A stretch of DNA of 48,667 nucleotides from an uncultured bacterium. Lineage in GTDB: Bacteria > Cyanobacteriota > Vampirovibrionia > Gastranaerophilales > Gastranaerophilaceae. The notes under the pieces are model-generated. The model had not been told where the DNA came from, made no database searches, and worked only from the letters and a program-made list of their open reading frames with translations. The stretch is from NCBI GenBank assembly GCA_949300515.1, contig CASGEP010000012.1, forward strand, positions 1 through 48,667, written 5' to 3'. A program made the translations under genes and the position numbers. Below are positions 139 to 47,209 of the stretch, one piece after another (positions within the stretch are counted from its first letter, which is position 1; each line of letters begins with the position of its first letter).

Positions 139-151
139 TAAAATAAATTAC
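139..151 (+). promoter_or_regulatory. -10 box of a leaderless promoter for the fluoride channel gene
   Basis: TAAAAT at 139-144 lies 7 nt before the ATG at 152 and is preceded by TGTGG. No Shine-Dalgarno sequence fits between them, so transcription would start at or next to the start codon. No fluoride riboswitch is visible in the 64-nt gap. Confidence 0.5.
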
Positions 152-523
152 ATGTTAAAACTCACTGCAATATTTTTGGGAGGAGGACTCGGCGCGGCAA
201 GCCGCTATTTGGCGACTGCTGCCTGCTCGAAGTTTTGCGGCGCCTTCCCTTTGGGAACTCTCGGGGTAAATGTTGCGGGAAGTTTTATTATGGGTTTTAT
301 TTTTTTGCTTTTTATGGAGAAAATCAGTGTGCCGGACGAGCTTAAGCTGTTTTTAACGGTCGGGTTCTGCGGCGGTTTAACAACATTTTCAAGCTTTTCA
401 CTTGATGTTTGGAATATGTTTTATGCGGGCGAATTTATAAAAGCCGCTCTGTATGTATTATTAAGCCTGATTTTATCCGTGGGAGCACTTTTTGCGGGGG
501 TAATGGTTGCAAAACAGTTCTGA
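152..523 (+). CDS. crcB: Fluoride-specific ion channel CrcB/FluC
   Basis: This 123-aa protein has four hydrophobic segments, the usual size for a Fluc/CrcB subunit, which forms a dual-topology dimer that exports fluoride across the inner membrane. Family motifs are visible: GGGLGAASRY near residue 10, GTLGVNVAGSFIMG around 35-48, and GFCGGLTTFSSFSLD around 72-86, the last holding the TTFSSF segment that lines the pore and the central sodium site. The gene opens a cluster with two overlapping downstream genes. The start is the first ATG, with a -10 box close upstream and no ribosome binding site, so it is probably leaderless. The family call is firm from the motifs. Confidence 0.93.
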   Translation: MLKLTAIFLGGGLGAASRYLATAACSKFCGAFPLGTLGVNVAGSFIMGFIFLLFMEKISVPDELKLFLTVGFCGGLTTFSSFSLDVWNMFYAGEFIKAALYVLLSLILSVGALFAGVMVAKQF

Positions 524-1442
524 AAAAATTAAAATAATTTTTTGCGGTATGCCCGATATGGCAACAATTTGTCTGCATAATCTCGTACAAAAAAATTTTG
601 AGATATCGGCGGTTATTCCGCCGCCAAATTCCAATCCGACGGCAAGCGGATTTATAAAATTTGCAAGAAGCCTTGCCCTTGAAGTGTTTGAGTATGACGA
701 AAACCCGAACACTGCGGATTTAATTGAAAAAATCGCCGCAAAAAACGCGGATATAGGCGTTATTTGCTCGTTTAACCACAAACTGAGCAGAGATTTTTTA
801 AACACGACAAAAATGGGCTACATCAACTGCCACCCCTCGCTTTTGCCGATGTATCGCGGCGCAAACCCGTATTTTCACATAATTAACAACGGCGAAAAAA
901 CGACGGGAGTAACACTGCACTTTGCGGACGAACACTTTGACACAGGCGAAATCATTGCCCAAAAAGGCTTTCTTGTAAGCGAAAAAGAAACCATCGGCAC
1001 GCTTTTTAACAGGTCAAATTTTATAATCGCGGACTTACTTGTAAATGTTTTAAGCATATTTCAAGACACGGGCAAAATAAACTCTAAAGCCCAGCCCGAG
1101 GGCACTTATCCCAAAGCCCCGAAAGTTCAAAACGAGTTAAAAATAAACTTAAATGACTCCCCCGCTTCAATAGAAAGGTTTGTGAGGGCGGCAAACCCTT
1201 TTTATAACGCCTATTTGAATTTCAGAGGCTCCGGCGCAAGGATTTTATGTGTTGACTATAAAATTCAAAAACACGATATGGAACCGGGTATTATAACAAA
1301 AATTTCGGGCGATGACCTTGAAATCTCGGCAAAAGACGGCTTTATTTACCCAAAATGCATACAGTGCGGGAGCTGGGGGATTTTTGACGCTGCAAATTTT
1401 ATAAAAGTTTTTAGACCAAATACGGGAGAATTTTTTAATTAA
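507..1442 (+). CDS. Fmt-like formyltransferase
   Basis: A 311-aa protein of the formyl-transferase family, which passes a formyl group from 10-formyl-tetrahydrofolate to an amine. The Rossmann-like half starts with KIIFCGMP. The active-site block INCHPSLLPMYRGANP holds the family Asn and His, and HFDTGEI holds the Asp. The last 100 residues resemble the Fmt C-terminal domain (SIERFVRAANPFYNAY, then FIKVFRPNTGEFF). It lacks the PDKP-x-GRG stretch usual in methionyl-tRNA formyltransferase, so it may act on a nucleotide sugar or another amine, although it could still be the cell's Fmt. The start is TTG: the first strand begins at residue 8 and no ATG precedes it. GGGGG lies 6 nt upstream. It overlaps the fluoride channel gene by 17 nt. 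Confidence 0.75.
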   Translation: MQNSSEKIKIIFCGMPDMATICLHNLVQKNFEISAVIPPPNSNPTASGFIKFARSLALEVFEYDENPNTADLIEKIAAKNADIGVICSFNHKLSRDFLNTTKMGYINCHPSLLPMYRGANPYFHIINNGEKTTGVTLHFADEHFDTGEIIAQKGFLVSEKETIGTLFNRSNFIIADLLVNVLSIFQDTGKINSKAQPEGTYPKAPKVQNELKINLNDSPASIERFVRAANPFYNAYLNFRGSGARILCVDYKIQKHDMEPGIITKISGDDLEISAKDGFIYPKCIQCGSWGIFDAANFIKVFRPNTGEFFN

Positions 1443-2263
1443 TGGATAAACTGAATTTTTTGACAGCCGGCATTCCGACAGTTGCAAAAGACTACTCCGA
1501 CGCTTTTTCAAAGCTTAGAGAAATGGAGCTTGACGGGCTTGAAATAGAATTTGTGCACGGCGTTAAAATGAGCGAAAAAACACAGAACATAGTGCTTGAA
1601 AACAAAAAAGAGCTTATTTTAACCTCTCACGGCCCTTATTACATTAACTTAAATTCAAAAGAGGAGGAAAAGAGAGAGGCAAGCATTAAAAGGATTACAG
1701 ACACCGCGGCAATGGCACACAGGCTCGGCGCCTATTCAATAGTCTACCATGCCGGCTTTTATATGGGCGAGAGCAAAGAAAATACTTTTAAAACAATTCT
1801 TGAAAAACACAATGAAATAGTTGAAATTCTTGAAAAGGAAAATAACGACATCTGGATAAGACCGGAAACAACGGGAAAGGGCACACAGTGGGGCGATATA
1901 GATGAAATCATCGAACTTTGCAAAAACTTTAAACAAGTGCTTCCGTGTGTTGATTTTGCACACATCCATGCCCGCACAAACGGACTTTTTAATACTTACG
2001 ATGAATTTTGTTCTATTTTTGAAAAAATCGCAAAAGGGTTGGGGGATAGGGCTTTAAATAATTTCCATGCACATATGGCGGGAATTGCCTACTCTCAAAA
2101 AGGTGAAAAACATCATTTAATCTTTGAAGAGAGCGATTTTAACTACAAAGATTTACTGAAAGCCTTTAAGACCTTTAATGTTAAAGGGGTTATAATTTGC
2201 GAAAGTCCTAACATTGAGGTCGATTGCAAGATATTAAAAGATTACTGGCAATCAATTAATTAG
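1442..2263 (+). CDS. Endonuclease IV-like / sugar phosphate isomerase family TIM barrel
   Basis: A 273-aa protein of the AP endonuclease 2 / xylose isomerase-like TIM-barrel family. The metal ligands of endonuclease IV can be followed in order: His in TSHGPYYINL, His in VYHAGFYMG, Glu in RPETTGKGTQWG, Asp and His in CVDFAHIHAR, His in NFHAHMAG, a His in GEKHHLIF and Glu in ICESPNIE. A trinuclear zinc site is therefore plausible. Known relatives cut DNA at abasic sites or isomerise sugars. The pattern is closer to endonuclease IV (Nfo), but the DNA-binding loops look short. The ATG overlaps the TAA of the formyltransferase gene by one base (TAATG), so the pair is translationally coupled. Confidence 0.75.
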   Translation: MDKLNFLTAGIPTVAKDYSDAFSKLREMELDGLEIEFVHGVKMSEKTQNIVLENKKELILTSHGPYYINLNSKEEEKREASIKRITDTAAMAHRLGAYSIVYHAGFYMGESKENTFKTILEKHNEIVEILEKENNDIWIRPETTGKGTQWGDIDEIIELCKNFKQVLPCVDFAHIHARTNGLFNTYDEFCSIFEKIAKGLGDRALNNFHAHMAGIAYSQKGEKHHLIFEESDFNYKDLLKAFKTFNVKGVIICESPNIEVDCKILKDYWQSIN

Positions 2264-2290
2264 ACAAAAAAACTTGTTTGTGGTATAAAT
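2261..2290 (+). promoter_or_regulatory. Promoter of secG
   Basis: TAGACA at 2261-2266, which overlaps the stop codon of the previous gene, and TATAAA at 2284-2289 are separated by 17 bp. TGG precedes the -10 box. A leader of about 20 nt would carry the AAGGA at 2306-2310. Confidence 0.6.
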
Positions 2291-2317
2291 TCTCATTATA
2301 AAAATAAGGATTTGACA

Positions 2318-2542
2318 ATGGTAACATTTTTCTATGTAATTCAAATAATTTCAGCACTTCTGCTTATTGCGCTTGTGCTCCTGCACTCGCCAAAAGGCGA
2401 CGGCATTGCCTCTATCGGCTCTGCAAGCCAGCTTTTCTCATCGCAAAAAAGTGCGGAAAAAGGCTTAAACAAAGTTACATACATTGTCGGCGGGGTGTTT
2501 ATCCTAACGACACTGCTTTTAGGTTTTGGCTTAATAAGATAG
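2318..2542 (+). CDS. secG: Protein translocase subunit SecG
   Basis: A 74-aa protein with two transmembrane helices (about residues 4-22 and 52-71) joined by the loop SPKGDGIASIGSASQLF. This is the classic SecG layout, which assists SecYEG during preprotein export. The length is normal. The ATG at 2318 is preferred over a TTG two codons upstream because AAGGA at 2306-2310 lies 7 nt from it. The gene is a single unit with its own promoter and ends just before a strong hairpin shared with the converging gene. Confidence 0.9.
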   Translation: MVTFFYVIQIISALLLIALVLLHSPKGDGIASIGSASQLFSSQKSAEKGLNKVTYIVGGVFILTTLLLGFGLIR

Positions 2543-2556
2543 ATACTTGACTAAAC

Positions 2557-2588
2557 AAAAATGAAAGGCAAAACAGCCTTTCATTTTT
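2557..2588. terminator. Bidirectional intrinsic terminator between secG and the HAD gene
   Basis: Stem ATGAAAGGC / GCCTTTCAT with an AAAACA-type loop, flanked by an A run on the left and a T run on the right, so it can stop transcription from both sides. It contains the TGA stop (2581-2583) of the leftward HAD gene. Confidence 0.85.
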
Positions 2589-3060: not shown

Positions 3061-4273
3061 TTTTTATACCGAGCGTCCTTCCAAGTGCCCGCTGCCACTG
3101 GCTTTGCCAGTCGTCTTTGGCATCTAATTCCATCCATACCTCATCATTTGTATTTGCAATGTCCGTTTTGTCGCCGTCTTTATTTACTATAGATACAACT
3201 TTTGCAAACGCTTTAAAATCGGGAGTAATTATTTCAAACTCATCGCCAATGTGCATTTTATTTTTAATTACAACCTTAAACAAATTGTCTTTTTTATCAA
3301 GGAAAATGCAGAGAAAATCGGCCCCGGCAAGACCTTTTGAAATCTCATAACTGTAGCTTGAGGAGTTGTTATCGCCCATAAAAAAGCCTTCCGTAAAGCC
3401 GCGGTTGCCAACTTTTTTCAGTTCGCAAAAAGCTTCTTCACTGTCGATTTTACCGTCCATCAGCGCGCGGTAAGCCTTTGTAACCGCACTTACATAATAA
3501 AGGCTCTTTGTCCTCCCTTCAACTTTAAAGGAGTCAACGCCTATGTTTTGCAGCTCTTTTATATATCTTACAAGGCATAAATCCTTAGGCGAGAGTATAT
3601 GCGAGCCGCGCTCATCCTGCACTATTTCGTAATATTCCCCGGGGCGGGTTTCTTCCAAAAGTTTATAGCTCCAGCGGCAAGGCTGAGCACAGCCGCCGTG
3701 GTTTGCTTTTCGCTCTCCTTTTGTCATATAATCGCTCAAAAGGCAGCGCCCTGAGTATGACATGCACTGTGAACCGTGAATAAAGATTTCAATTTCAATG
3801 TCGGGAACAGCTTTTTTAATTGCTTCAATTTGTTTAAGCGAAAGCTCGCGAGCAAGGATAACTCTTGCCGCACCCATATCTCGCCAGAACTTTACGGCTT
3901 GGGTGTTTAAAATATTTGTCTGGGTTGAAATGTGTATATCGGTGTCGGGCAGATATTTTTTTACAATTCTGTACACACCGAAATCACTCAGGATAATTGC
4001 ATGCGGGTTTGCATTTTTAATGATTTCAATACTTTCTTCCAAACTCTTAATGTCATTGTCGTATGCAAAAATATTCAGAGTTAAATACGCCTTTTTATTC
4101 AATTTTCTTGCGGTATCAATTGCGTATTTTAAATTTTCCCTTGTAATCAGCTCGCCTTTTCGCATTGTCCTTAGCGAATAGTCTACAAGCCCCAAATAGC
4201 AAGCATCCGCGCCGTATGCGTATGCGTATTTCATTTTTTCTATGTTGCCCGCTGGCATTAAAAGTTCACTCAT
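3044..4273 (-). CDS. U32 family protein, TrhP/YegQ-like (tRNA U34 hydroxylation)
   Basis: A 409-aa peptidase-U32 family protein. It starts with ELLMPAGNIEKMKYAYAYGAD, and carries the signature block IEIFIHGSQCMSYSGRC followed by NHGGCAQPCRW, with the four conserved cysteines that likely bind an iron-sulfur cluster in TrhP-type enzymes. TrhP is known to make 5-hydroxyuridine at position 34 of tRNA from prephenate. Older annotation calls the family collagenase-like protease. A C-terminal beta-barrel of about 80 residues is present. There is no ribosome binding site. TAATAT at 4280-4285 lies 6 nt before the ATG with an upstream TGT, which suggests a leaderless message. Confidence 0.82.
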   Translation of the reverse strand: MSELLMPAGNIEKMKYAYAYGADACYLGLVDYSLRTMRKGELITRENLKYAIDTARKLNKKAYLTLNIFAYDNDIKSLEESIEIIKNANPHAIILSDFGVYRIVKKYLPDTDIHISTQTNILNTQAVKFWRDMGAARVILARELSLKQIEAIKKAVPDIEIEIFIHGSQCMSYSGRCLLSDYMTKGERKANHGGCAQPCRWSYKLLEETRPGEYYEIVQDERGSHILSPKDLCLVRYIKELQNIGVDSFKVEGRTKSLYYVSAVTKAYRALMDGKIDSEEAFCELKKVGNRGFTEGFFMGDNNSSSYSYEISKGLAGADFLCIFLDKKDNLFKVVIKNKMHIGDEFEIITPDFKAFAKVVSIVNKDGDKTDIANTNDEVWMELDAKDDWQSQWQRALGRTLGIKNETET

Positions 4274-4287
4274 AGGAGTATATTAAC
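4274..4287 (-). promoter_or_regulatory. Leaderless promoter of the U32 gene
   Basis: Read on the minus strand: extended -10 TGTTAATAT (hexamer 4280-4285), then 6 nt, then ATG. No Shine-Dalgarno sequence is present. Confidence 0.45.
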
Positions 4288-4306
4288 ATAAAAGGAAAGG
4301 TTTTAA

Positions 4307-4455: not shown

Positions 4456-4510
4456 CGCGCCGTTGTGCCGGACTGTCCTTGCCGCAGCAAGTGCGGCGCG
4501 GGGCGCCGGC

Positions 4511-4774: not shown

Positions 4775-4898
4775 GGTTACAACTCCTTTCTTATAAAGCT
4801 ATTTTGGGCAAAATTTCGGCATATTGTATCAGACATAAAACTAAACATGTTAACAATTATTAATAATTTTAAAATATGATGCTTGAAAAATTTTTTTA

Positions 4899-4907: not shown

Positions 4908-4940
4908 GAACACCTAATCTTAAAATAAGAGGATAAAAAA

Positions 4941-5396: not shown

Positions 5397-5404
5397 AAAA
5401 ATTT

Positions 5405-5432: not shown

Positions 5433-5447
5433 AATTCAAAAGTCTTT

Positions 5448-8201
5448 TTAAATACTTGCCGGTATAGGATTTTTCACACTTTGCCAGCCGCCTTCCGGTC
5501 CAAGGTCGATTATATAGTCGGCGCATTTAATAATATCTAAATTGTGCTCGATTATCAAGACTGTATTTCCGCTGTCCGCAAGCTGATGAAGGATTTTAAC
5601 AAGCTTATCTATATCCCACCAGTGAAGCCCTACCGAAGGCTCGTCCATTAAATAAAGCGTTTTTCCGGTTGCGCGTTTGTTAAGTTCAAGCGCAAGTTTT
5701 ACCCTCTGCGCCTCTCCGCCGGAGAGAGTTGTTGCACTTTGCCCCAGTTTTATATAATCAAGCCCGACATCATAGAGGGTTTGCAGTCTGGTTGCAATTC
5801 TCGGTACGTTTTTGAAAAACTCAAGAGCCTCGCCCACCGTCATATCAAGTACGTCCGCTATGCTTTTGCCCTTGTATTTAACCTCGAGGGTTTCCTGATT
5901 ATATCTTTTACCCTTGCAGACGTCGCATTTAACATAAACATCGGACAAAAAATTCATCTCAATTTTTAAAACGCCGTCGCCCTTGCACTTTTCGCACCTT
6001 CCGCCTTTTACGTTAAAAGAAAATCTTCCCTGTTTATACCCTCTTACTTTTGCTTCGTTTGTCTGCGCAAAAAGGTCGCGAATATGCGTAAAAACTTCGG
6101 TATAAGTAGCGGGATTTGACCTTGGCGTTCTGCCTATCGGGCTTTGATCCACACATACAATCTTATCTATATTTTCAAACCCTTTTATCTCATCCACCCC
6201 TTGAGGTTTTGGGCGGTTGGAGCGAAGCTTGTGCATGGCATATTCGTTAATTAAATCCTGCACAAGGGTAGATTTCCCGCTGCCCGAAACACCCGTAACC
6301 GCAACTATTTTACCGAGCGGAATATTAACGTCAATATTTTTCAGATTGTTTAAATGTGCGTTTTTAACTTCGAGAAAATTTCCATTGCCAAGGCGCCTTT
6401 CTTTCGGAACGGGGATTTTCAATTCACCGCTTAAATATTTTCCCGTAATTGAGTCTTTTGAATTTTCAATATCTTTTTGCGTGCCGAAAGCCACGACATT
6501 CCCACCTTCAACCCCTGCCTTGGGGCCTATATCCACAATATAATCGGCGGCTTTTATTGTATCTTCGTCATGCTCTACAACAATTAAAGTGTTTCCGAGG
6601 TTGCGAAGCTTAATAAGAGTATTTATCAACATGTCATTATCGCGCTGGTGCAGACCTATTGAAGGCTCATCAAGAACATATAAAACACCCGACAAACCCG
6701 AGCCTATCTGGGTTGCAAGTCTGATACGCTGAGCCTCTCCGCCCGATAGAGTGCCAGCGCTCCTTGCAAGGTTTAAATAGCCTAAACCGACGTCAATTAA
6801 GAATTTCAGACGAAGGCGGATTTCATCGAGAATTTGTTTTGCAATGGTCAATTTAAAATCGTCCAAATTCAGATAAACTTCCTGAATGAAATCATAAGCC
6901 TTTGTAACGGACAAAAGACAAAACTCATAAATATTTTTATCCATAATTGTAACAGCCAGCGCAAAAGGATTTAATCGCGCTCCCTTGCAGGCTTTACAGG
7001 GTATTGAGGTCATATACTTTTGAATTTCTCCGCGGATTAAATCCGAATCGGAAGATTCGTATTTTCGCGTAAGATAAGGAATTACGCCGATATATGCAAC
7101 ATAATGCGTGCGGTAATTTTTTGTGCCAAAATCCGCATAGCGCATTTTAATGCGCTCATCGTCATTTCCATACAGAATTATGCCTTTTTGCGACGGCGTC
7201 AGGCTTTTAAAAGGCACGTCGGGATTAATGCCGTAGTGCTCGCAAACAGAATTTAAGACATCATAATAATATTGATTGCCCGTCTTTGCCCAGGGGTAAA
7301 TTGCACCCTGATTTATTGATTTTGAAGGGTCGGGAACCACAAGCTCGGGAGTAATTTCAAAGTGCGCGCCAAGGCCGTTGCACACCTTGCAAGCGCCGTA
7401 AGGGTTATTAAAACTCAACATTCTTGGTGTCAACTCTTCAAAACTCAAGTTGCATTTTGGACAAGCCAACTTTTCGGAAAAAATTACTACATCAAGCACC
7501 ATAAGCCCGTCAGAGCGCTGCAGAGCTATTTGCGCACTGTCAAAAATCCTTGATTTTGCGCTTTCTTTAACTACAATCCTGTCTATAACAACGTCAATTG
7601 TGTGTTTTTTTGTTTTATCAAGCTCAATTTCATCTTCATCAAGATTATAAATTTCGCCGTCAACTCTTAAGCGCACAAAACCTTCGGACTTTAGCCCCTG
7701 GATAGTTTGGACATATTCACCCTTTTTGCCGCGAATAATCGGGGCAATTATTTGAATTTTAGTACCCTCGCCCAATGCCATAATTTTTGCGACAATTTCG
7801 TCAATGGTCTGCGGAACAATTAACTCGCCGCACTGCGGGCAGTGAGGAGTGCCGACACGGGCATATAAAAGCCTTAAATAGTCGTAAATTTCGGTAATTG
7901 TACCGACAGTTGAGCGCGGATTGTTTGTGGTTGACTTCTGATCTATTGATATAGCAGGCGAAAGCCCGTCGATGTGTTCGACATCGGGCTTATCCATCTG
8001 CCCCAAAAACTGGCGCGCATACGTCGAAAGGCTCTCTACATAGCGCCTTTGCCCTTCCGCAAAAATTGTATCAAAAGCAAGCGAACTTTTGCCCGAGCCT
8101 GACACACCCGTAAAAACAATTAACTCGTTTTTGGGAAGCTCCAGCGAAACGTCTTTTAAATTATGTTCTCTTGCACCTTTTATAACTATTTTGTCACTCA
8201 T
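5448..8201 (-). CDS. uvrA: Excinuclease ABC subunit A, with altered C-terminus
   Basis: UvrA, the DNA-damage sensing ATPase of nucleotide excision repair. Visible elements: Walker [10 protein letters not shown] near the N-terminus, zinc modules CPQCG and CPKC/CKVCNG, signature [25 protein letters not shown], a second Walker [11 protein letters not shown], zinc finger [16 protein letters not shown], a second signature [13 protein letters not shown] and [10 protein letters not shown]. The end is odd. After IDLGPEGG the frame reads [12 protein letters not shown] and stops, while the usual C-terminus [18 protein letters not shown] is present in another frame at 5431-5487. About 14 expected residues between them are missing. 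The ATG at 8201 is chosen because the family begins [15 protein letters not shown] and CATAAT lies 6 nt upstream. An ATG at 8207 is possible. Confidence 0.92.
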
Positions 8202-8216
8202 ACTCATATTATGCCA
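8202..8216 (-). promoter_or_regulatory. Leaderless promoter of uvrA
   Basis: On the minus strand TGGCATAAT (hexamer CATAAT, 8208-8213) is an extended -10 box. Exactly 6 nt separate it from the ATG at 8201, which is the start expected from the family. There is no ribosome binding site. Confidence 0.5.
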
Positions 8217-14352: not shown

Positions 14353-15665
14353 TTTAAAACTCCAAAAACACAGCCAAGAAACGTCTTTATGTCGTAAAAC
14401 AGCTCCCTTAGGCTTCTTTGCTTAATGAAACGGACAAAAAGTCCTCTAAATTCATCTCGTTTCGCTACACAGTTTGCGCCGCAAAAAATCTTAAAGAAAT
14501 CACTTGCAAACGCGGGGTAGTAATTCATAAGTGAATTTGTTCTTGAATAAAGATTTTCCATAACGTTTTTATAAGATTTTAAATCTTTTAATATAAAAGA
14601 ATTTTCAAGCTTTTTTTTGTAAAGTTTAAGCGTTTTTTTGGAATAATCTTTTATCTTGATTGCATAAGCCGCGGTTTCGCCGGCGTATTTTCCGCTTATA
14701 AGGGCATAGTTTGTGCCTTCAAAGTGAATGCCGTTTACAAAACCGGCAGCATCGCCCGCAACCAGAACACCGTTTTTATAAAGTTTGGGAAGTTTTTTGT
14801 ATCCGCCCTCGGGAATTAAATGCGCGCTATACTCTACTAGCTCGCCGCCCTGAATAAGCGGGCTTACAACAGGGTGCTCTTTCAGTTTTTCGAGCAAGTC
14901 GGAAGGGTTTAGTTTATATTTTATTAAATCTTCAATGCTAAGCCCCAGCCCCAAAGACAGGCAATCATCGTAAGTATACATAAAACCAAGACCGAAAGGA
15001 GCATCTTTAAGACCCAATCCGCCTATAAAATTTCGCGCCGCGCCGCCTTTAGAACTTCCTTTCAAGCAAAAACGCTCCTCAATTGTTTCTCTTGAGAGTT
15101 TAATTGTTTCTTTTACACTTAATACCGTGTCTTTCGGCTTATATTCTTTTCTAAGACCTATTTGCCTTGCAAGGAGCGAGTTTACACCGTCTGCGAGTAT
15201 TACGACATCACTGTGAATTTCTTCAAGTTCCGTTTGCACACCGCAGATAAAACCCTCTTTTACAAGCAGGTTTAAAACAAGAGTTGACGGGGCAAAGTAA
15301 ACACCCTCCTCTTTTGCTTTTTCCACAAGCCACAGGTCAAACTTAGAGCGGTAAATACTCGCGCTTTTCTTCGCCCCCGGGAAGTCACAGGAGATATCAA
15401 CACTTGAATTATCCGTTAAAAGCGACCATGTGTGTTTGTTTATATACCTTTCAAAAGGCGCCTGCTCCCAGGAGTCGGGGAAAATTTCTTTTAGAGCAGT
15501 CAAAAACACCGCTCCGCCAATCATATTTTTTGCGCCCGCATAACTTGAGCGCTCAATGAGCAGAGTCTTTGCACCCCCGCGTTTTGCCGCAAGCGCGGCA
15601 CTGACACCCGAAGGTCCCGCTCCTACGACGATGACGTCAAATTTTTGTACCTCTGTATCCTCCAT
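14349..15665 (-). CDS. fixC: FixC-like flavoprotein:quinone oxidoreductase
   Basis: A 438-aa FAD-dependent oxidoreductase of the FixC / ETF-quinone oxidoreductase family. The dinucleotide site VIVVGAGPSGVSAALAAKRG is near the N-terminus, then AKNMIGGAVF. DVVILADGVNSLLARQIGL and NGVLVAGDAAGFVNGIHFEGTNYA are the second FAD motifs. Length fits FixC. Its neighbour fixX supports the call. The ATG at 15665 is preferred to a TTG five codons upstream because the promoter TTGTCA-17-TATAAT ends 6 nt before it. No ribosome binding site is present, so the operon head is predicted to be leaderless. Confidence 0.88.
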   Translation of the reverse strand: MEDTEVQKFDVIVVGAGPSGVSAALAAKRGGAKTLLIERSSYAGAKNMIGGAVFLTALKEIFPDSWEQAPFERYINKHTWSLLTDNSSVDISCDFPGAKKSASIYRSKFDLWLVEKAKEEGVYFAPSTLVLNLLVKEGFICGVQTELEEIHSDVVILADGVNSLLARQIGLRKEYKPKDTVLSVKETIKLSRETIEERFCLKGSSKGGAARNFIGGLGLKDAPFGLGFMYTYDDCLSLGLGLSIEDLIKYKLNPSDLLEKLKEHPVVSPLIQGGELVEYSAHLIPEGGYKKLPKLYKNGVLVAGDAAGFVNGIHFEGTNYALISGKYAGETAAYAIKIKDYSKKTLKLYKKKLENSFILKDLKSYKNVMENLYSRTNSLMNYYPAFASDFFKIFCGANCVAKRDEFRGLFVRFIKQRSLRELFYDIKTFLGCVFGVLK

Positions 15666-15700
15666 AAAATAATTATACAAGCTATTTATCTTGCTGACAA
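15666..15700 (-). promoter_or_regulatory. Leaderless promoter of the fixC operon
   Basis: Minus strand: -35 TTGTCA (15695-15700), spacer 17, -10 TATAAT (15672-15677), then 6 nt and ATG. It is the best-formed example of the leaderless layout in the window. Confidence 0.75.
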
Positions 15701-19201: not shown

Positions 19202-20592
19202 GTTGTACCCTCTTTTGAATCTTTGAGCAATATGCCGCACTTGTCAAACTCATCGCGGATTAAATCTGATTTTGCCCAGTCTTTATTATCTCTTGCAGCT
19301 TTTCTTATTGAAATAATTTTCTCTATTGCCTCATTGGCGCAAATATTTTCATCAATTTCAAAAGTTTTGTACAACGGTAAAATCATTTCTCTAAGTTCAC
19401 TTTCGCACACTTCTTTCTTTGCAAGTGAAAAATCAAATCCCAAAACTTCGCCAAGAGTAATGAGTGTACTTGCATAGAGCCTTGCTTCTTTTTCATCCGA
19501 GGCTTTTTTAACCTTATCCGCCACAGCAAACAATACGGCAAGAGCCTTTGACGTGTTTAAATCATCATCCATTGCAAGCTTAAAGGCATTAACTGACTCC
19601 TCGTCGACTTCATCTGTTTTATTGTAACCACAAGCAGCGCCTATCAGTCTTTTTGCACCTGCAGCAGCAGAATTAAGCGCCTCGTCGTTAAATTCTACAG
19701 GCATTCTGTAGTGATTTGTCAAAATAAAAAACCTTATAGCATTTGAGTCATATTTTTTCAATAAATCATCAATTGTTAAAAAGTTGTTCAAAGACTTTGA
19801 CATTTTTTCTTTATTTATTGTCACAAATCCGTTATGCAGCCAATAATTTACAAATTTACATCCGTTAGCACACTCGCTCTGGGCAAGTTCGTTTTCATGG
19901 TGCGGAAAAGTTAAGTCAGCTCCACCTGCATGGATATCTATACTGTCACCCAAGAATTTTTTACTCATAGCCGAGCATTCAATGTGCCACCCCGGACGAC
20001 CCAAGCCCCAAGGGCTTTTATAGCCATGCTTTTCGTCTTTTTTCCACAGGGCAAAATCAAGCGGCGATTTTTTCTTCTCGTCAGTGTCAACTCTTGCACC
20101 TGCCATCAAATCATCAATAGGTTGTTTTGAAAGTTGCCCGTATTTTTTATATTTTTCAACTTCAAAGTATACATCACCATCAACAGGGTAGGCAAAACCG
20201 TTATCTATGAGTTTTTTAACCATAGCAATCATCTCGCCTATTGTCTTTGTAGCACGCGGCTCTACATCAGGTTTAAGACAATTTAAGCCCTTCATGGAAT
20301 TCTCAAAAGATGCATAAAATTCTTTTGTAATGTCTTCAGGCGAAACTCCCTGCATGTCGGCTTTTTTGAGAATTTTATCATCGACATCGGTTACGTTTCT
20401 GCAGTATGTGGTATTATAACCTAAGAACTTAAGATAACGATATAATACATCCCAGGTTATATAACACCTTGCATGTCCCAGATGCGCCTTATCGTATACA
20501 GTAGGACCGCAGACGTACATCTTTACTTTTTTATCCTCAACAGGAATAAATTCTTCTAATTTGTTTGATAATGAATTATGAAATTTAAGCAT
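19186..20592 (-). CDS. cysS: Cysteinyl-tRNA synthetase
   Basis: A 468-aa class I synthetase. It has MYVCGPTVYDKAHLGHAR (zinc cysteine and HIGH-type motif), the zinc ligands in WHIECSAMS and FPHHENELAQSE, and the KMSKSLNNF signature. Length is normal. The ATG at 20592 is preceded by TAAAAT at 20599-20604 with 6 nt between and no ribosome binding site, so the gene is probably leaderless. It reads into rsmI by overlap and is divergent from purA. Confidence 0.96.
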   Translation of the reverse strand: MLKFHNSLSNKLEEFIPVEDKKVKMYVCGPTVYDKAHLGHARCYITWDVLYRYLKFLGYNTTYCRNVTDVDDKILKKADMQGVSPEDITKEFYASFENSMKGLNCLKPDVEPRATKTIGEMIAMVKKLIDNGFAYPVDGDVYFEVEKYKKYGQLSKQPIDDLMAGARVDTDEKKKSPLDFALWKKDEKHGYKSPWGLGRPGWHIECSAMSKKFLGDSIDIHAGGADLTFPHHENELAQSECANGCKFVNYWLHNGFVTINKEKMSKSLNNFLTIDDLLKKYDSNAIRFFILTNHYRMPVEFNDEALNSAAAGAKRLIGAACGYNKTDEVDEESVNAFKLAMDDDLNTSKALAVLFAVADKVKKASDEKEARLYASTLITLGEVLGFDFSLAKKEVCESELREMILPLYKTFEIDENICANEAIEKIISIRKAARDNKDWAKSDLIRDEFDKCGILLKDSKEGTTWQVK

Positions 20593-20604
20593 ATTTATAT
20601 TTTA
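20593..20604 (-). promoter_or_regulatory. Leaderless promoter of cysS
   Basis: Minus-strand TAAAAT (20599-20604), then ATAAAT and ATG at 20592. The gap to purA is only 67 bp. A plus-strand TAAAAT for purA is at 20623-20628. Confidence 0.5.
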
Positions 20605-27398: not shown

Positions 27399-28502
27399 CT
27401 ACACTTTATCTGTAGGAGTATTAACCTCAATGTCAGCATTTTGCGCTTTTTTCTTTTTAAGATTGTAAACAAATATAAGAATTTCGGCAACAGCTTTATA
27501 TAAATCCGGCGGTATTTCCTGATCAATTTCAACAAAACGAAATATTGCACGCGCCACGGGCGGGTTTTCAATGACCGGCACACCATGGTGCTGTGCAATT
27601 TCTTTTATTTTTTTTGCAAACAATTCACTTCCCTTTGCAACAAGTTTTGGAGAGCGCATGGTTTTTTGGTCATATTTTAAGGCACAGGCAATATGTGTCG
27701 GGTTTGTGACAACAAAATCCGAATCAGGCACGGCATCCATCATTTTCTTTTGCAAAAGCTGGTGACGTCTTTGTCTGAGTGCAGCTTTTACATGCGGGTC
27801 GCCTTCGGTGTTTTTATATTCGTCCTTTACCTCTTTAAAAGACATTTTCTGGTCCTGTAAAAACTTCCACTTCGTAACCCCGTAATCGGCTGCGGCGATG
27901 ATTAAAAATATAATACCCGCTTTTATAACGAAATCGACAACCAGCTTGCCGAACTGAATTAAAACCGCGAACTGATTATCAATTGCGGCAAGCATAATAA
28001 TTGCCTCAAAGTGATCCATATAGACAATATAGCCTATGATACCCAGTATAACTACCTTTGCAATGTTTTTAACAAGTTCAAAAAGAGTTTTCGGACTCAT
28101 AAGATTTTTAAAATATTTCGTCGGGTTTAATTTGTCAAACTTCGGAGAAAGCGGCGCCATGGTAAAAAGCGGTCCTACCTGAATTAAATCTCCCATAACC
28201 CCCACAAACCATGCCAGTAGAAGTATGGGCACAATAATAAGTGCGGCAGGGACAACCGTTATAAAAAGCAGATAACCGTAGCCTATCTTTTCAAGATGGG
28301 CAGTCGGGATTTGTTCATAAATGAGGGTAAAAAGCCCCGACACCTGCGACCAGATAAAAGGTGCAAGGGCGTATATACCGCTGAACATAACTATCAGACC
28401 GATAGCAACCGAAAAGTCTTTAGACTTTACGACCTGTCCTTCTTTTCTTGCTTTATTGAGCTTCTGCTGCGAAGCTTCAAACTGCTTATCCTCATCAGCC
28501 AT
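27399..28502 (-). CDS. flhB: FlhB-type type III export switch protein
   Basis: A 367-aa FlhB/SctU family protein. The N-terminus (EASQQKLNKARKEGQVVKS) is typical of the family, followed by four membrane segments (about 31-60, 76-104, 145-165 and 183-207). The cytoplasmic part holds EGDPHVKAALRQRR and the self-cleavage site N267-P-T-H in VVTNPTHIACALKY. It gates the flagellar or injectisome export apparatus. No other export genes are in the window, but the next gene is a FliA-like sigma factor, which favours a flagellar origin. TATAAT lies 6 nt before the ATG with no ribosome binding site. Confidence 0.9.
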   Translation of the reverse strand: MADEDKQFEASQQKLNKARKEGQVVKSKDFSVAIGLIVMFSGIYALAPFIWSQVSGLFTLIYEQIPTAHLEKIGYGYLLFITVVPAALIIVPILLLAWFVGVMGDLIQVGPLFTMAPLSPKFDKLNPTKYFKNLMSPKTLFELVKNIAKVVILGIIGYIVYMDHFEAIIMLAAIDNQFAVLIQFGKLVVDFVIKAGIIFLIIAAADYGVTKWKFLQDQKMSFKEVKDEYKNTEGDPHVKAALRQRRHQLLQKKMMDAVPDSDFVVTNPTHIACALKYDQKTMRSPKLVAKGSELFAKKIKEIAQHHGVPVIENPPVARAIFRFVEIDQEIPPDLYKAVAEILIFVYNLKKKKAQNADIEVNTPTDKV

Positions 28503-28514
28503 AGTTTAATTATA
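28503..28514 (-). promoter_or_regulatory. Leaderless promoter of flhB
   Basis: Minus-strand perfect TATAAT (28509-28514), preceded by AGTG, then TAAACT and ATG at 28502. No clear -35 box is seen. Confidence 0.55.
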
Positions 28515-28526
28515 CACTATTTGGTT

Positions 28527-29042
28527 TTAATATTTTACAAGGGATGTAACTTTTACGTCTTTGGGGAGCTTTTCTCTACCGTTTAAGTCCGTAAGCTCTA
28601 TTACAAATGCAATGCCCGCAACATCAGCCGCACTTTGCACAAGTTTAACCGCTGCCGCAGCCGTTCCGCCCGTTGCAAGAAGATCATCAACAATAAGCAC
28701 TCTGTCGCCTTTTTTAAGGGCATCTTCGTGCATTTCAATCTTATCCGTACCATATTCAAGAGAATACTCCTGAGATATTGTTTTTGCGGGAAGTTTGCCC
28801 GGTTTTCTGATAGGTATAAAGCCGCAGTTTAATTTATAGGCAATCGGCATGCCAAAAATAAAACCGCGCGATTCAATGCCTGCAACATAGTCAATTTTTT
28901 CGTTTTCATATTCTTTTGCCATTAAATCAACAATTTTATGCATTGTTTGTGCATCTTTAACGGCTGTTGTAATGTCCCTGAAAATTATTCCTTTTTTAGG
29001 GAAATCGGGAACATCTCTTATCATCTTTTTTATATCGTCCAT
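28527..29042 (-). CDS. apt: Adenine phosphoribosyltransferase
   Basis: A 171-aa Apt, which salvages adenine to AMP with PRPP. The family signature [18 protein letters not shown] is near residue 118, preceded by IESRGFIFG and [10 protein letters not shown]. Length is normal. AAGGAG lies 10 nt before the ATG, a slightly long spacing. The gene ends 24 nt before flhB starts and could read into it. It is divergent from prfB. Confidence 0.95.
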
Positions 29043-29097: not shown

Positions 29098-29109
29098 TAA
29101 AATAATTTT
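29098..29109 (+). promoter_or_regulatory. Leaderless promoter of prfB
   Basis: TAAAAT at 29098-29103, then AATTTT and ATG at 29110. No Shine-Dalgarno sequence is present. Confidence 0.5.
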
Positions 29110-30214
29110 ATGTCGGAAACAAAAGAAGAACTGAAACAAATAACCACCACCCTAAAGCCGCGGCTTGAAGCGGCGGGAAGGTGTCTTTGACCTTGGCGGT
29201 CTTAAAAATTCCCTAAAAAATCTTGATGAAAAACTGCGTGATGAAAATATCTGGAATAATCAGGAAGAAGCCTCAAAGCTTTTAAAAGAGCAAAAAGAGG
29301 TAAAATCTTCTCTTGAAAGATTTGAAAAGTGGACAGGTATTTTAGAAGATGCGCTTTTAAGTCTCGAACTTGATGATGAGGGTCTTATGTGCGAAGCGCT
29401 GGCAGGCGTTAAAAATCTTGAAAAAGAGCTTGATAAATTTGATTTAGAGCAGATGCTAAGCGGCGAATACGATAAAAACGATGCCATTTTAACCGTTAAC
29501 TCGGGCGCGGGCGGCACAGACGCGCAGGACTGGGCGCAAATGCTTTTAAGGATGTATATGCGCTGGGCACAGCTGCACAACTACACAATAGAGCTTTTAG
29601 ATAAATCAGACGGCGAAGAAGCGGGGATTAAATCCGCAACCATTAAAATCTCGGGCAAATGGGCGTACGGGTATGCAAAAGCCGAAAAAGGAGTGCACAG
29701 GCTTGTAAGAATTTCACCCTTTAACGCCAACGGCAAAAGACAGACAAGCTTTGCCTCTCTTGAGGTAACTCCCGTTATAGAAGATTTTGAAAAGAAAATA
29801 ACAATACCACCCGATGAAATTGAAATTGAAACAATGCGCTCGGGCGGCGCGGGCGGACAAAACGTAAATAAAGTAGAAACGGCGGTAAGGATTTATCACA
29901 AACCGACGGGGATTGTCGTAAAGTGCCAGCAGGAGCGCTCCCAGCTTCAAAACAGGGAAACCGCCATGCAAATGCTCGCTTCAAAACTCCTTGCAATAAA
30001 ACAGCAGGAGCACGAACAAAAACTTGCAGGGCTAAAGGGCGAAGTTATGGATGTAAACTTTGGCTCACAAATTCGCTCTTACGTTTTTCACCCCTATAAA
30101 CTTGTAAAAGACCACCGAACAGGCTATGAAACGGGCAACGTTGATGCTGTCATGAACGGTGAAATAGATGGGTTTATTGAAGAATATTTAAAGTTTGGTG
30201 AAAAGAAAAACTAA
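29110..30214 (+). CDS. prfB: Peptide chain release factor 2, programmed +1 frameshift
   Basis: RF2 reads UAA and UGA. The first frame starts at ATG 29110 and codes 26 residues ending GRCL, then meets an in-frame TGA at 29188-29190. The second frame continues from GAC at 29189 as DLGGLKNSL. The slippery site CTT-TGA-C with the purine-rich GGAAGGTG just upstream (29177-29183) matches the known autoregulatory frameshift, in which low RF2 favours the shift. The full product is 367 aa. It has the anticodon-like [19 protein letters not shown] and the catalytic GGQ in [17 protein letters not shown]. Coding is 29110-29187 joined to 29189-30214. A terminator follows. Confidence 0.95.
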
Positions 30215-37090: not shown

Positions 37091-37267
37091 TTATGTTGCT
37101 TTGGTAATCGTTATCGTTTTCTTATCAACGTTTAAAACCAGTTTTACCTTTTGCGAATTATCCTCTGTATCCACTCCCAGTATTTTAAGCCAGAGCTTCG
37201 GGAAAATTACGCCTCTGCTTGCCTTGCCCGAACGTATTAAACTTTTTGTTTCTTCAATTTTATTCAT
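37091..37267 (-). CDS. Small AbrB/SpoVT-like protein
   Basis: A 58-aa protein read from ATG 37267 to TAA 37091, shorter than common length cut-offs. The sequence runs MNKIEETKSLIRSGKASRG, then VIFPKLWLKILGVD, and ends VKLVLNVDKKTITITKA. This is the swapped-hairpin pattern of AbrB/MazE DNA-binding proteins: a strand, 'lPK.w...lg' turn, then 'v.l.....i.i.k'. GATAAT at 37274-37279 lies 6 nt before the ATG within an extended TGCGATAAT, predicting a leaderless message. No toxin partner is adjacent; ssb lies 65 nt downstream on the same strand. Confidence 0.65.
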   Translation of the reverse strand: MNKIEETKSLIRSGKASRGVIFPKLWLKILGVDTEDNSQKVKLVLNVDKKTITITKAT

Positions 37268-37282
37268 AAAACAATTATCGCA
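37268..37282 (-). promoter_or_regulatory. Leaderless promoter of the AbrB-like gene
   Basis: Minus-strand extended -10 TGCGATAAT (hexamer 37274-37279), then TGTTTT and ATG. Confidence 0.45.
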
Positions 37283-41755: not shown

Positions 41756-42437
41756 ACTTAATTTCAAAAGTCATTTTCATAAAATCAAGACCCTGATAGT
41801 CGGGGAATTTTTTCTTAATTTTATTATAAACCCGCACGGCGTCGTCCTTTTGCCCGATTTTATCGTAAGTCAGGGCAAGATTTGAATAGTATTTCGGGAA
41901 CTGTGTGGGGTTTAATTTTATTGCTTTTTTAAAGTATTTAACCGCGTTTTCCCAATCCTCAACCGAGTAGCAGATAAGCCCCATTTGATTGTTCGCCCGA
42001 TGCGAGCGCTCTTGCAGTTTTAGCGCTTCCCCGCAGTATTTCTGCGAATTTTCCCACTGCGCAAGGCTGGCATAGCAGATAGACAGTGCATAAAAAGCAT
42101 CATAGTTTTTATCATCCGCTTCAATTACCCTGTCAAACATTTCAATAGCTTCATTTATGGAGTTTTTTGAAAAGTAAATACAGCCGATATTATAAACGGT
42201 ATCCAAATCCTCGGGACACAGCTTGTGCGCCACTTTATAGTAATCAAGCGCCAGAATATCCTCGCCTAAATTTTGATAGCACAGTGCCATATTATAAGGT
42301 ATTTTATAATTTGCCGGCTCGAGTTTTTTTGCCCGCTCAAAAAGCTCCAGCGCACGCTTATAATTTTTCTTTTTGTAAAAATCAAGAGCGCTGTTATAAT
42401 ATTTTGCCCAATTGTTTGATAAATTAATTTTGAACAT
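41745..42437 (-). CDS. TPR repeat protein divergent from bioB
   Basis: A 230-aa cytoplasmic protein of about six TPR units (NWAKYYNSALDFYKKKNYKRA, YKIPYNMALCYQNLGEDILA, DTVYNIGCIYFSKNSINEA and others). The ATG at 42437 (MFKINLSNNW) is preferred although the frame runs on to 42599, because TACAAT at 42444-42449 lies 6 nt upstream and bioB occupies the other strand beyond. There is no ribosome binding site, hence a leaderless prediction. Confidence 0.82.
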   Translation of the reverse strand: MFKINLSNNWAKYYNSALDFYKKKNYKRALELFERAKKLEPANYKIPYNMALCYQNLGEDILALDYYKVAHKLCPEDLDTVYNIGCIYFSKNSINEAIEMFDRVIEADDKNYDAFYALSICYASLAQWENSQKYCGEALKLQERSHRANNQMGLICYSVEDWENAVKYFKKAIKLNPTQFPKYYSNLALTYDKIGQKDDAVRVYNKIKKKFPDYQGLDFMKMTFEIKSKI

Positions 42438-42459
42438 ATTTTTATTGTATAATACTTTT
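42438..42459. promoter_or_regulatory. Overlapping divergent leaderless promoters (bioB / TPR)
   Basis: The whole gap between the two start codons is 22 bp. On the plus strand TATAAT (42448-42453) is 6 nt before the bioB ATG. On the minus strand TACAAT (42444-42449) is 6 nt before the TPR ATG. The two -10 boxes share two bases inside the near-symmetric ATTGTATAAT. Confidence 0.6.
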
Positions 42460-43374
42460 ATGAATAAAAAAACACTGTTGGAATTATATTCTCTGGAATT
42501 AGATAAACTCCTTGCCCTGGCTAAGGAAAAGACAAAAAACAAAGTGGGGTTTTGCTCTATCATAAGCGCACGCACGGGAAAATGCGGCGAAGGCTGCAAA
42601 TACTGCGCGCAAAGTTCCTATTATATGACTAATATTCCCGCTCATCCGCTTATTGAAACAAAAAAAGTAATAGAAGTTGCAAAAGAGGCAAAAGCAAACG
42701 GCGCAACACGCTTTGCAATTGTCACATCCGGCAGAGGGCCCTTGGATGAGGACATGCCGCGCTTTTGCGAAATGATATCGGAAATCAATAAACTCGGACT
42801 TAAAAGCTGTGCCTCAATAGGCATTTTAAAAGACGGGCAGGCGCAAATGCTCAAAAAAGCAGGGCTTTCGCGCTATCATCACAACATTAACACCTGCCAC
42901 TCTTATCACCCCTCAATCACCCACACTCACACCTATGACGACAGATTAGACACAATCAAAAAAGTTAAAGAAGCAGGTCTTGAGCTTTGCTGCGGGGTAA
43001 TTGTCGGCATGGGCGAAACCGTTGAACAAAGGGTTGAAATGGCGCTTGAACTGGCTCAAATTCAGCCCGAGTCAATTCCTTTTAATATCCTGACGCCCAT
43101 TAAAGGCACGCCCTTTGAAAATTACGGCGATAAAATCGATGAAGAAAATATTTTAAGAACGGCAGCAATTTTTAAAATCGCAAACCCGAATTCGATTATA
43201 AGGCTTGCGGGCGGCAGGAAAGCCCGCCTTTCAAAAGAAAACATGGAACTTGCCCTCAAAAACTGCATAGAAGGCATTCTCATCGGCAACTACCTTACGA
43301 CTCTGGGCATAACGCCTGATGAGGACAGAAAAACCCTTGATAAATTAGGAAAAACCCTATGTACGACTACATAA
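42460..43374 (+). CDS. bioB: Biotin synthase
   Basis: A 304-aa radical-SAM BioB that inserts sulfur into dethiobiotin. The 4Fe-4S motif is CGEGCKYCAQSSYY; other family blocks are FAIVTSGRGP, the second-cluster cysteine in CASIGIL, HHNINTCHSYHPSI with further ligands, CCGVIVGMGET, FNILTPIKGTPF and RLAGGRKARL. The ATG at 42460 is chosen over upstream codons (frame open to 42412) since the family starts here and TATAAT lies 6 nt before. There is no ribosome binding site. Its end overlaps ruvA by 16 nt, an unusual operon of vitamin and repair genes. Confidence 0.95.
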   Translation: MNKKTLLELYSLELDKLLALAKEKTKNKVGFCSIISARTGKCGEGCKYCAQSSYYMTNIPAHPLIETKKVIEVAKEAKANGATRFAIVTSGRGPLDEDMPRFCEMISEINKLGLKSCASIGILKDGQAQMLKKAGLSRYHHNINTCHSYHPSITHTHTYDDRLDTIKKVKEAGLELCCGVIVGMGETVEQRVEMALELAQIQPESIPFNILTPIKGTPFENYGDKIDEENILRTAAIFKIANPNSIIRLAGGRKARLSKENMELALKNCIEGILIGNYLTTLGITPDEDRKTLDKLGKTLCTTT

Positions 43375-43973: not shown

Positions 43974-43983
43974 GGATGGAATT

Positions 43984-45417: not shown

Positions 45418-45500
45418 CGGCAAATAGCACAAAAGTCTAAAATACAATTACACTTTTATCGGATAACAAAAAAATTTATTACATATAAACTAAAGGCATT

Positions 45501-46964
45501 ATGTACGAATTTTTAAAGAACTTATCCGATAAGTCGCACTGCCGCAGTATGGGTATCTGCTCTATCGACCCTACGGTAAGCGCCATAGAGGAACTTTTGC
45601 TCTCGCAAATACGCGAAACAAGTTTTTATATACTGAAACTGCACGACCTCGGGCAAACAAACAGAGAAATAGAAGAAAACATTATAAAAGGACTCTCTAT
45701 CGTAATGATTAACACAAGTTTCGACAGACACGACCTTTTAAACTTCCTTGCCCTCATCTGCCGCGATAAAAATAATGCAAAAGAAAAATATATAAGCATT
45801 TGCAGGAAAAATCACCAGCCCTGCGAACTCATAGACTCCGACTTCAATATCTGCAATCAAACAGACTTAAACTCAATAATAAAAGCCGGAGAAGCCGGAC
45901 TGCAAAACAAATACAAAGGCGTAACCCGCGAAAAACAGCGCCTTTTTGAACTTATCACCCTGTTTGCAAAAACAAGCTCAATAATACTTGAACTCTACAA
46001 AAAAATCACACAGGACACATCACGCTACGATTTTGAAATAATAAGATTTTTTGCCCTCACAAATACCCTCTCCACACGCTGCGAAAAGCTAAAGAGGCGC
46101 ATTCTTGAATTTTCAAAATTATCTTTCAAACTGCAAAGCGAAATGAGCGGCGCATATGAAAACCGCTGGGGAAAAAGGCAAAGCGCAAAAATCCTCCTCA
46201 GCCCCAAAAAGGGTAAATGCATTCTCATAAGCGGACCCGATTTATTTGAACTTGAAAAACTTCTTGAAACAATAGGCGACAGAAAAATTGACGTCTACAC
46301 AAACTCGCTTATGTTCATAGCCCACACCTACCCGAAATTCAAAAACAATAAAAATCTCGCAGGACACCTTGGCACACAGGACCCGGGAATAGACTTTTCG
46401 GACTTCCCCGGGGCAATCCTTATAACCCAAAATTTTGTCCAAAAAATAGACTCCCTTCTAAGAGGCACAATGTACTCAAACAAAATAATCGCCCCCAACC
46501 GCGTTTTTAAAATAGAAAATAACGACTATGAGCCTCTTATACAGGCAGCCCTAAAACTTGAAGGCTATGAAAAATCATACGAGAAAAAATACCTCGAAAT
46601 ATCCCACAACTTTGAAAAACTCGACAACACACTAAAAGAACTAAAGGGCGAAAGCGTTGTGATAATCGTCGGCGAAAACGTCAGCGACAGCACGATAGAA
46701 GACTTTGGCGGCAAAAAAGTTATCAATCTCGAATGCCCCGTTGAAAGCGACCTGCTCATAAGGGCGCTCGAAAAATGTACAGAATTTGAAATCAAAACCG
46801 ATTTATTTTTTACAACCTGTACAATAAGCGGTATAAACACCCTTATGTCAACACTTTTTATGAATTTGGAAAGACTCTGGCTTGTAAACTGTTCATCCGC
46901 GCTCATCAACCCCCATGTGCTCGAGTCGCTTGAACTTGACTTCAATGTAAAAATAATTCGTTAA
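45501..46964 (+). CDS. Hybrid-cluster-protein-like protein without cluster ligands
   Basis: A 487-aa protein whose fold blocks follow hybrid cluster protein (Hcp): NTSFDRHDLL (Hcp TNVNFD), CILISGPDLFELEKLLE (ISGHDL), IDVYTNSLMFIAHTYPKF (VYTHGEMLPAHxYP), FPGAILITQNFVQK (FPGPILMTTNC), YEPLIQAALKLEGY, and the closing LWLVNCSSALINPHVLE. The metal ligands are not kept: the ISGH His is Pro246, the HGEM Glu is Leu270 (same 24-residue spacing), the TTNC Cys is Phe312, and the later GGCDG and CGKxRF blocks are absent. Of the N-terminal cluster cysteines only C14 and C20 remain. AAAGG precedes the ATG. It follows glgA by 83 nt. It is probably not a reductase; function unknown. Confidence 0.7.
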   Translation: MYEFLKNLSDKSHCRSMGICSIDPTVSAIEELLLSQIRETSFYILKLHDLGQTNREIEENIIKGLSIVMINTSFDRHDLLNFLALICRDKNNAKEKYISICRKNHQPCELIDSDFNICNQTDLNSIIKAGEAGLQNKYKGVTREKQRLFELITLFAKTSSIILELYKKITQDTSRYDFEIIRFFALTNTLSTRCEKLKRRILEFSKLSFKLQSEMSGAYENRWGKRQSAKILLSPKKGKCILISGPDLFELEKLLETIGDRKIDVYTNSLMFIAHTYPKFKNNKNLAGHLGTQDPGIDFSDFPGAILITQNFVQKIDSLLRGTMYSNKIIAPNRVFKIENNDYEPLIQAALKLEGYEKSYEKKYLEISHNFEKLDNTLKELKGESVVIIVGENVSDSTIEDFGGKKVINLECPVESDLLIRALEKCTEFEIKTDLFFTTCTISGINTLMSTLFMNLERLWLVNCSSALINPHVLESLELDFNVKIIR

Positions 46965-47173
46965 CTTTTCTCAACAATTTTAAACTCATACCCTAAAAAG
47001 TCTAAAATCTCCTGTACGGTTTCAAAGCGTATTCGTCTTTTGTTCAACATAACCGAAAAATTACTCGAAGCGGGCATATCATAGCCTGCTTCATTCATTT
47101 TTACAAGCAGCTTTCTCATGGACATACCTTTTCTCAATAGTAATATTTGAATTTCTTGTTTGATATTTAACAT
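46961..47173 (-). CDS. Small XRE-like regulator
   Basis: A 70-aa DNA-binding protein: MLNIKQEIQILLLRKGMSMR, then KLLVKMNEAGYDMPASSNFSV and the recognition-type MLNKRRIRFETVQEILDFLG. This is a compact Cro/C1-like helix-turn-helix without extra domains. The ATG at 47173 is 7 nt after TAGCAT, and a TTGTCA -35 box lies 17 bp further up, so the message is predicted leaderless. The gene is divergent from the prepilin and the repeats in the gap may be its sites. Its stop overlaps the converging Hcp-like gene's end by 4 nt. Confidence 0.75.
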   Translation of the reverse strand: MLNIKQEIQILLLRKGMSMRKLLVKMNEAGYDMPASSNFSVMLNKRRIRFETVQEILDFLGYEFKIVEKS

Positions 47174-47209
47174 AATAATAATGCTACCTATATATATAAC
47201 AATTGACAA
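47174..47209 (-). promoter_or_regulatory. Leaderless promoter of the small XRE gene
   Basis: Minus strand: TTGTCA (47204-47209), spacer 17, TAGCAT (47181-47186), 7 nt, ATG. The same -35 sequence is used by fixC. Confidence 0.55.

Follow-up and report, generated by a model that had tools for sequence, protein, structure and literature searches.

Promoters set at the start codon suggest a leaderless gene class beside Shine-Dalgarno-led genes in Gastranaerophilaceae

Does transcription of some bacterial genes in a cyanobacterial-type lineage begin at the first base of the start codon? The question is raised by contig CASGEP010000012.1 of assembly GCA_949300515.1, from an uncultured bacterium of the Gastranaerophilaceae; the complete contig of 48,667 bases is hereafter called the window. 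A preliminary description had reported eleven genes in it that carry a -10 hexamer 6-7 nucleotides (nt) ahead of their ATG and lack a Shine-Dalgarno (SD) sequence, and had interpreted them as leaderless. The observation is confirmed, and sequence comparisons support the interpretation: two start systems very probably operate side by side, an SD-led majority of genes and a leaderless minority whose transcripts would start at the ATG. Candidatus Galligastranaerophilus intestinavium and further Gastranaerophilales, a non-photosynthetic group related to Cyanobacteria, are the nearest named relatives of the source genome (1.72 Mb), in which the photosynthetic reaction-centre protein family PF00124 was looked for and not found.

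A genome-wide histogram of the distance between -10 hexamers and start codons, set against AT-matched shuffled sequence, had been proposed as a check, and absence of a peak was to count against the claim. Our sample consisted of 40 stretches plus the window (847 kb), in which a simple gene caller of our own, relying on a hexamer coding score, predicted 813 genes. The histogram was drawn from 685 candidate ATGs of 402 genes that have 50 nt or more of space upstream, and 500 dinucleotide shuffles served as background. A sharp peak was found at 6 nt with a shoulder at 7 nt, and the claim stands. Occurrences of TANAAT at spacers 0 to 11 were 5, 3, 0, 2, 1, 1, 28, 10, 4, 4, 8 and 5; the 28 at spacer 6 compare with 3.03 in shuffled sequence (maximum of 9 in 500 shuffles) and with a mean of 4.98 (standard deviation 2.53) at spacers 12-59, and the 10 at spacer 7 with 3.17 (maximum again 9). 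The looser TANNNT occurs 50 times at spacer 6 versus 22.2 in shuffles (maximum 41), its signal at spacer 7 being weak (30 versus 22.6, a count reached by 36 of the 500 shuffles). Operon-internal starts carry TANAAT at spacer 6 as well (5 versus 1.02). A fixed distance from -10 box to start codon, which places +1 at the start codon, is thus present above chance, as expected of leaderless genes.

A mixture model of three classes (-10 box at 5-8 nt, SD, none) was then fitted to 533 operon-head genes by expectation-maximization (EM), both matrices being learned freely. For the -10 class the model settled on TATAAT, with spacer probabilities of 0.70 at 6 nt and 0.25 at 7 nt and a likelihood 70-146 nats above ten decoy spacings, and free EM returned the same matrix and spacing in two other genomes of the family. 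At a posterior above 0.8, the model called 86 head genes leaderless (66 at spacer 6, 19 at spacer 7 and one at spacer 8) and 349 SD-led. A more conservative count on the same 533 genes, made with a fixed matrix against a background of decoy spacings, gave 70 sites versus a decoy mean of 8.1 (standard deviation 2.6), an excess of 11.6%. Roughly one in nine head genes seems, from these counts, to be transcribed from its first codon without a leader.

Features unused in finding the sites agree with the leaderless reading. A T at position -1, which lies outside the mixture model, precedes the ATG at 55 of the 66 spacer-6 sites (83%), compared with 137 of the 349 SD starts and with 24 of 54 TANAAT-N6-ATG occurrences elsewhere, and is found at 12 of the 19 spacer-7 sites. 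Such a T, followed by A at +1, forms an initiator that RNA polymerase favours. Words resembling a -35 box peak at gaps of 16 and 17 bp (15 and 13 sites), other gaps holding 0-7 save for a second peak weighed below, and the -10 box bears a TGN extension at 22 of the 66 spacer-6 sites. Conserved spacing in orthologs, described further on, belongs to the same set of features. Moreover, the start codon is ATG in 85 of 86 leaderless-called genes versus 313 of 349 SD-called genes (p 0.004), and an SD 4-mer is present in 0/86 versus 292/349, a separation that is only partly independent because the mixture model itself favours it.

In the window, all eleven hexamers, spacings and ATGs lie exactly where they had been placed; none of the sites has an SD 4-mer between -18 and -3, ten have T at -1, and the TTGTCA said to stand 17 bp upstream of the -10 box at fixC and at the XRE gene is present at both. 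Pfam backs six gene names (CrcB/FluC, peptidase U32, a FixC-like FAD oxidoreductase, CysS, FlhB and a radical-SAM/BATS protein, BioB), whereas a Pfam search with the AbrB-like open reading frame (ORF) matched no family; the names TPR, XRE, secG, purA, hisS and ssb are labels of the preliminary description, which also ascribes normal leaders to the last four. The sites are as follows, with the posterior of the mixture model (p) for six of the genes.

139-154, + strand: fluC (CrcB); -10 TAAAAT 139-144, spacer 7 nt, ATG 152-154, C at -1
4271-4285, - strand: peptidase U32 gene; -10 TAATAT 4280-4285, spacer 6 nt, ATG at 4273; p 0.94
8199-8213, - strand: uvrA; TGN-extended -10 CATAAT 8208-8213, spacer 6 nt, ATG at 8201; p 0.81
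15663-15700, - strand: FixC-like FAD oxidoreductase gene; -35 TTGTCA 15695-15700, 17 bp, -10 TATAAT 15672-15677, spacer 6 nt, ATG at 15665; p 1.00
20590-20604, - strand: cysS; -10 TAAAAT 20599-20604, spacer 6 nt, ATG at 20592; p 0.99
28500-28514, - strand: flhB; -10 TATAAT 28509-28514, spacer 6 nt, ATG at 28502
29098-29112, + strand: prfB; -10 TAAAAT 29098-29103, spacer 6 nt, ATG 29110-29112, ahead of a frameshifted reading frame
37265-37279, - strand: small ORF labelled AbrB-like; TGN-extended -10 GATAAT 37274-37279, spacer 6 nt, ATG at 37267
42435-42449, - strand: gene labelled TPR; -10 TACAAT 42444-42449, spacer 6 nt, ATG at 42437; p 0.98
42448-42462, + strand: bioB; -10 TATAAT 42448-42453, spacer 6 nt, ATG 42460-42462; p 1.00
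42438-42459, no strand: putative bidirectional promoter of bioB and TPR; 22 bp
47171-47209, - strand: small gene labelled XRE; -35 TTGTCA 47204-47209, 17 bp, weak -10 TAGCAT 47181-47186, spacer 7 nt, ATG at 47173

Taken singly, the fluC and XRE sites are weak cases. A gap of 24 bp separates the start of flhB from the co-directional ORF before it (28502-28527); the -10 box stands in the gap and any -35 box within that ORF, so that it would be an internal operon promoter. In prfB, a CTTTGA frameshift context (window 29110-29180) follows the leaderless-type start, and the autoregulation of RF2 would therefore act on a leaderless mRNA.

Comparison of orthologs indicates that the layout can be conserved over a family, and that it can also be exchanged for an SD leader. 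Among the best-scoring 39 uvrA loci, all of one family and with our own included, a TATAAT-like hexamer stands exactly 6 nt before the conserved ATG in 37 and an SD 4-mer in none (0/39), and DNA farther upstream has diverged despite the kept spacing. For the U32 gene, a count by eye found TAATAT, TATTAT or TATCAT at 6 nt in 17 of 18 family orthologs; a scripted test allowing one mismatch to TATAAT accepted only 5 of the 18 at spacer 6, since most carry TAATAT. Orthologs of flhB have a -10 box at 6-7 nt in 9 of 30 cases, eight of those nine without SD, and 17 of the remaining 21 have an SD. Similarly, bioB has the box in 5 of 29 orthologs (none of the five with SD; locus L220, with no usable ATG, is left out) and an SD in 20 of the remaining 24, the leaderless layout being found mainly in its own genus and near relatives. 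These counts indicate that a gene tends towards one of two layouts, a -10 box set at its start codon or a leader with an SD. In near stretches (L111-L130, of the same family by kinship, and L025-L037, with 80% or more identity in the query protein), a -10 box at 6-7 nt was found in 16 of 18 orthologs of leaderless-called genes versus 1 of 107 orthologs of SD-called genes; bioB and TPR together supply 14 of those 18 orthologs, so that retention, counted by gene, is 4 of 6.

Upstream of the U32 gene, the 18 family genomes (L255-L272) also share a block resembling CATCACCTAATCGGTTGATTATTTAT around the -35 position, which by eye is conserved well past a bare promoter and suggests an operator. By eye, no such block is present in the window's own U32 upstream region.

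The start codons of bioB (+, 42460) and of the TPR gene (-, 42437) are 23 bp apart, and their opposed -10 boxes overlap by 2 bp. Both boxes lie within the 22 bp between the start codons, and no room is left for a leader on either side. L192, a genome of the same genus, has the pair with both spacings, as do L026, L033 and L037. With overlapping opposed -10 boxes and predicted transcription start sites (TSSs) 23 bp apart, the locus would fall within the 10-23 bp separation by which bidirectional promoters are recognized. The sampled half of the genome holds 106 divergent pairs, and among the closest 25 both genes are leaderless-called in five (15, 23, 24, 45 and 57 bp). At one of them (L060:10851-10866) the start codons are 15 bp apart and the opposed -10 hexamers likewise overlap. 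In E. coli bidirectional promoters, TSS separation is reported to be most often 18 bp and commonly also 10 or 23 bp (PMC12825309). Divergent TSSs share a -10 element in the symmetric promoters of that study as they would at bioB/TPR; unlike them, the predicted TSSs of bioB and TPR are start codons, and the word leaderless is absent from the main text of that study. The placement of two leaderless genes on one bidirectional promoter looks new.

How far the layout extends was evaluated by whole-genome counts of TATAAT-N6-ATG versus TATAAT-N9-ATG, which keeps the same codon phase, in 168 genomes. The source genome has 63 N6 and 24 N9 occurrences and its family 7374 and 3321, N6 being larger in 62 of 62 genomes. 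Other families of the order, with 22 genomes, total 1393 versus 1047 (N6 larger in 18), most strongly in f6 (225/121) and f7 (178/103) and with no clear N6 excess in f2, f4 and f5. The photosynthetic set comprised the 62 genomes with PF00124 among 64 (23 family codes) labelled putative photosynthetic, the other two being left out. Overall it shows no such excess, with 1810 versus 1743 (N6 exceeding N9 in 31 genomes, falling below it in 27 and matching it in 4), and a few of its single-genome families have high ratios on small counts (f29, 13/3; f33, 5/0). The contrast is clean between the signal of the own family and its absence, for the TATAAT motif, in photosynthetic genomes taken together. 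The remaining genomes of the class and phylum without PF00124, that is, not among the 62 matching genomes, total 748 versus 508 (22 genomes, N6 larger in 17), the strongest families being f11 (213/95), f15 (24/6) and f19 (36/10), with no N6 excess in f9, f25 and f36. With N6 to N9 ratios of 2.2 to 4, f11, f15 and f19 may have a leaderless regime that is independent or older.

Among other genomes, the fixed-matrix test gave 11 sites versus 2.0 in G018, 10 versus 1.0 in G047 and 11 versus 1.6 in G016. Of the genomes outside the family fitted by free-matrix EM, G016 alone gained clearly, by 7-20 nats and with 62% at spacer 6 under the matrix TAtgAT; G013, G128, G086, G090 and G071 showed no gain. 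The excesses of these five with the fixed matrix of our genome are weak, and are best taken as hints: 10 versus 1.8 in G128, 7 versus 1.2 in G090, 3 versus 0.9 in G013, 3 versus 0.5 in G086 and 5 versus 1.8 in G071.

From the sequence we infer both the 5' ends of the leaderless-called genes and the mode of ribosome entry. Most head genes would have a leader with an SD site. At the minority, an ordinary sigma-70-type RNA polymerase would bind a TATAAT-like -10 box, sometimes TGN-extended and with a poor -35 box 16-17 bp upstream, and would start 6-7 nt past the hexamer at the A of the ATG, which is also the A of the T(-1)A(+1) initiator. The mRNA would then begin with AUG and, like other leaderless mRNAs, be taken up by the ribosome with no SD pairing. 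This minority would amount to about 12% of head genes by the conservative count and up to 20% by the free model, the latter figure being loose because decoys with poor matrices attain weights of about 0.2 in that model too. The description of leaderless use as frequent is upheld in the sense of that share, SD leaders remaining the majority.

Could base composition alone produce such a pattern? An AT-rich genome could be expected to have many TATAAT-like words ahead of its starts, and the window by itself is no proof: among its 36 candidate ATGs and 19 automatically called head genes, TANAAT at 6-7 nt occurs twice versus 0.43 in shuffles, 35 of 500 shuffles reaching 2, and TANNNT has no excess (3 versus 3.06; 301 of 500 shuffles reach 3). 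This automatic set leaves out flhB (24 bp behind its neighbour), prfB (frameshifted), the AbrB-like and XRE genes (short) and fluC (no preceding gene). At the scale of the genome, no comparable peak occurs in dinucleotide shuffles, at other spacings, with reversed patterns or in the 62 photosynthetic genomes together; shuffles, decoy spacings and N9 counts rule the artefact out, and we give it practically no credence. It is unlikely, though less remotely so, that the transcripts bear very short leaders of 1-5 nt and undergo the same leaderless-type initiation. The 19 sites at spacer 7 and the one at spacer 8 would fit a start at -1 or -2, and sequence is unable to fix the start to one base; the T at -1, at both spacers, fits initiation at the A, and the spacing peak is narrow. 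Real promoters in front of wrongly predicted ATGs, with translation from a downstream codon equipped with an SD, are very improbable. The starts are predictions and some are uncertain, 13 of the 86 leaderless-called genes having another in-frame ATG upstream. Nevertheless, UvrA and FlhB homology begins at residue 1 from the proposed ATGs, and the fixed 6-nt register to the ATG would otherwise be without reason.

Several other observations weigh against leaderless initiation as the general explanation, or narrow its reach. The -35-like words have their second peak at gaps of 0-1 bp (10 and 12 sites), which T-runs may cause. Head genes and their starts come from our own simple caller and from 49% of the genome. 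E. coli K-12 (200 kb, same pipeline) gave 0 of 121 with decoys at 0-5; with decoy counts themselves near 1, it has little force as a negative control. Finally, the layout is mostly not kept beyond near relatives: in more distant stretches, a -10 box at 6-7 nt was found in 2 of 13 orthologs of leaderless-called genes versus 0 of 60 orthologs of SD-called genes, and the U32 layout in neither of two orthologs outside the family.

Leaderless genes are widespread in bacteria. They were reported in over 200 of 953 bacterial genomes by a survey according to which neither SD-led nor leaderless genes are in use in many Cyanobacteria (PMC3160421); elsewhere Cyanobacteria are named among the groups reported to possess many leaderless mRNAs (PMC5397173), or are assigned to a class of unknown initiation while 21.6% of bacterial species fall in a leaderless class (PMC9581028). 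The genes described here resemble the TA-led genes of Zheng et al. 2011 (PMC3160421), which show a -10-like TANNNT signal some 12 bp ahead of the start codon, are mixed with SD-led genes, and switch initiation mode among genes of common ancestry. Unlike that survey, where more than 20% of genes were involved in Actinobacteria and Deinococcus-Thermus, the signal is found here in non-photosynthetic cyanobacterial relatives. Cappable-seq of gut species assigned 10-15% of TSSs to leaderless transcripts in Akkermansia muciniphila and Bifidobacterium pseudolongum (PMC4782308), a share close to ours; there it was measured, in four species of other phyla and with Cyanobacteria and Melainabacteria absent from the main text, whereas ours is derived from sequence. 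A literature search for leaderless with Melainabacteria, Vampirovibrio or Gastranaerophilales returned no papers for any of them. As leaderless mRNA in Cyanobacteria has already been both asserted (PMC5397173) and, for many genomes, denied (PMC3160421) in print, the novelty first proposed for a cyanobacterial-type lineage narrows to the non-photosynthetic one, for which it looks new.

We lean, by a small margin of belief, towards the combined view that non-photosynthetic cyanobacterial relatives carry a leaderless regime lacking in photosynthetic ones, and that one symmetric promoter of 22 bp is shared by bioB and its divergent neighbour, both of them leaderless, so that promoter and both translation starts would be the same few bases. 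If this is true, a shift in TSS choice at bioB/TPR would cost a protein its start. In flhB and bioB, the initiation layout appears to change within a family. For these genomes, the results suggest that gene finders relying on SD sites will put some starts in the wrong place. Moreover, the phylum is split between a probable leaderless regime in non-photosynthetic gut lineages and no motif sign in photosynthetic genomes taken together, which allows the gain or loss of leaderless initiation to be compared within one phylum.

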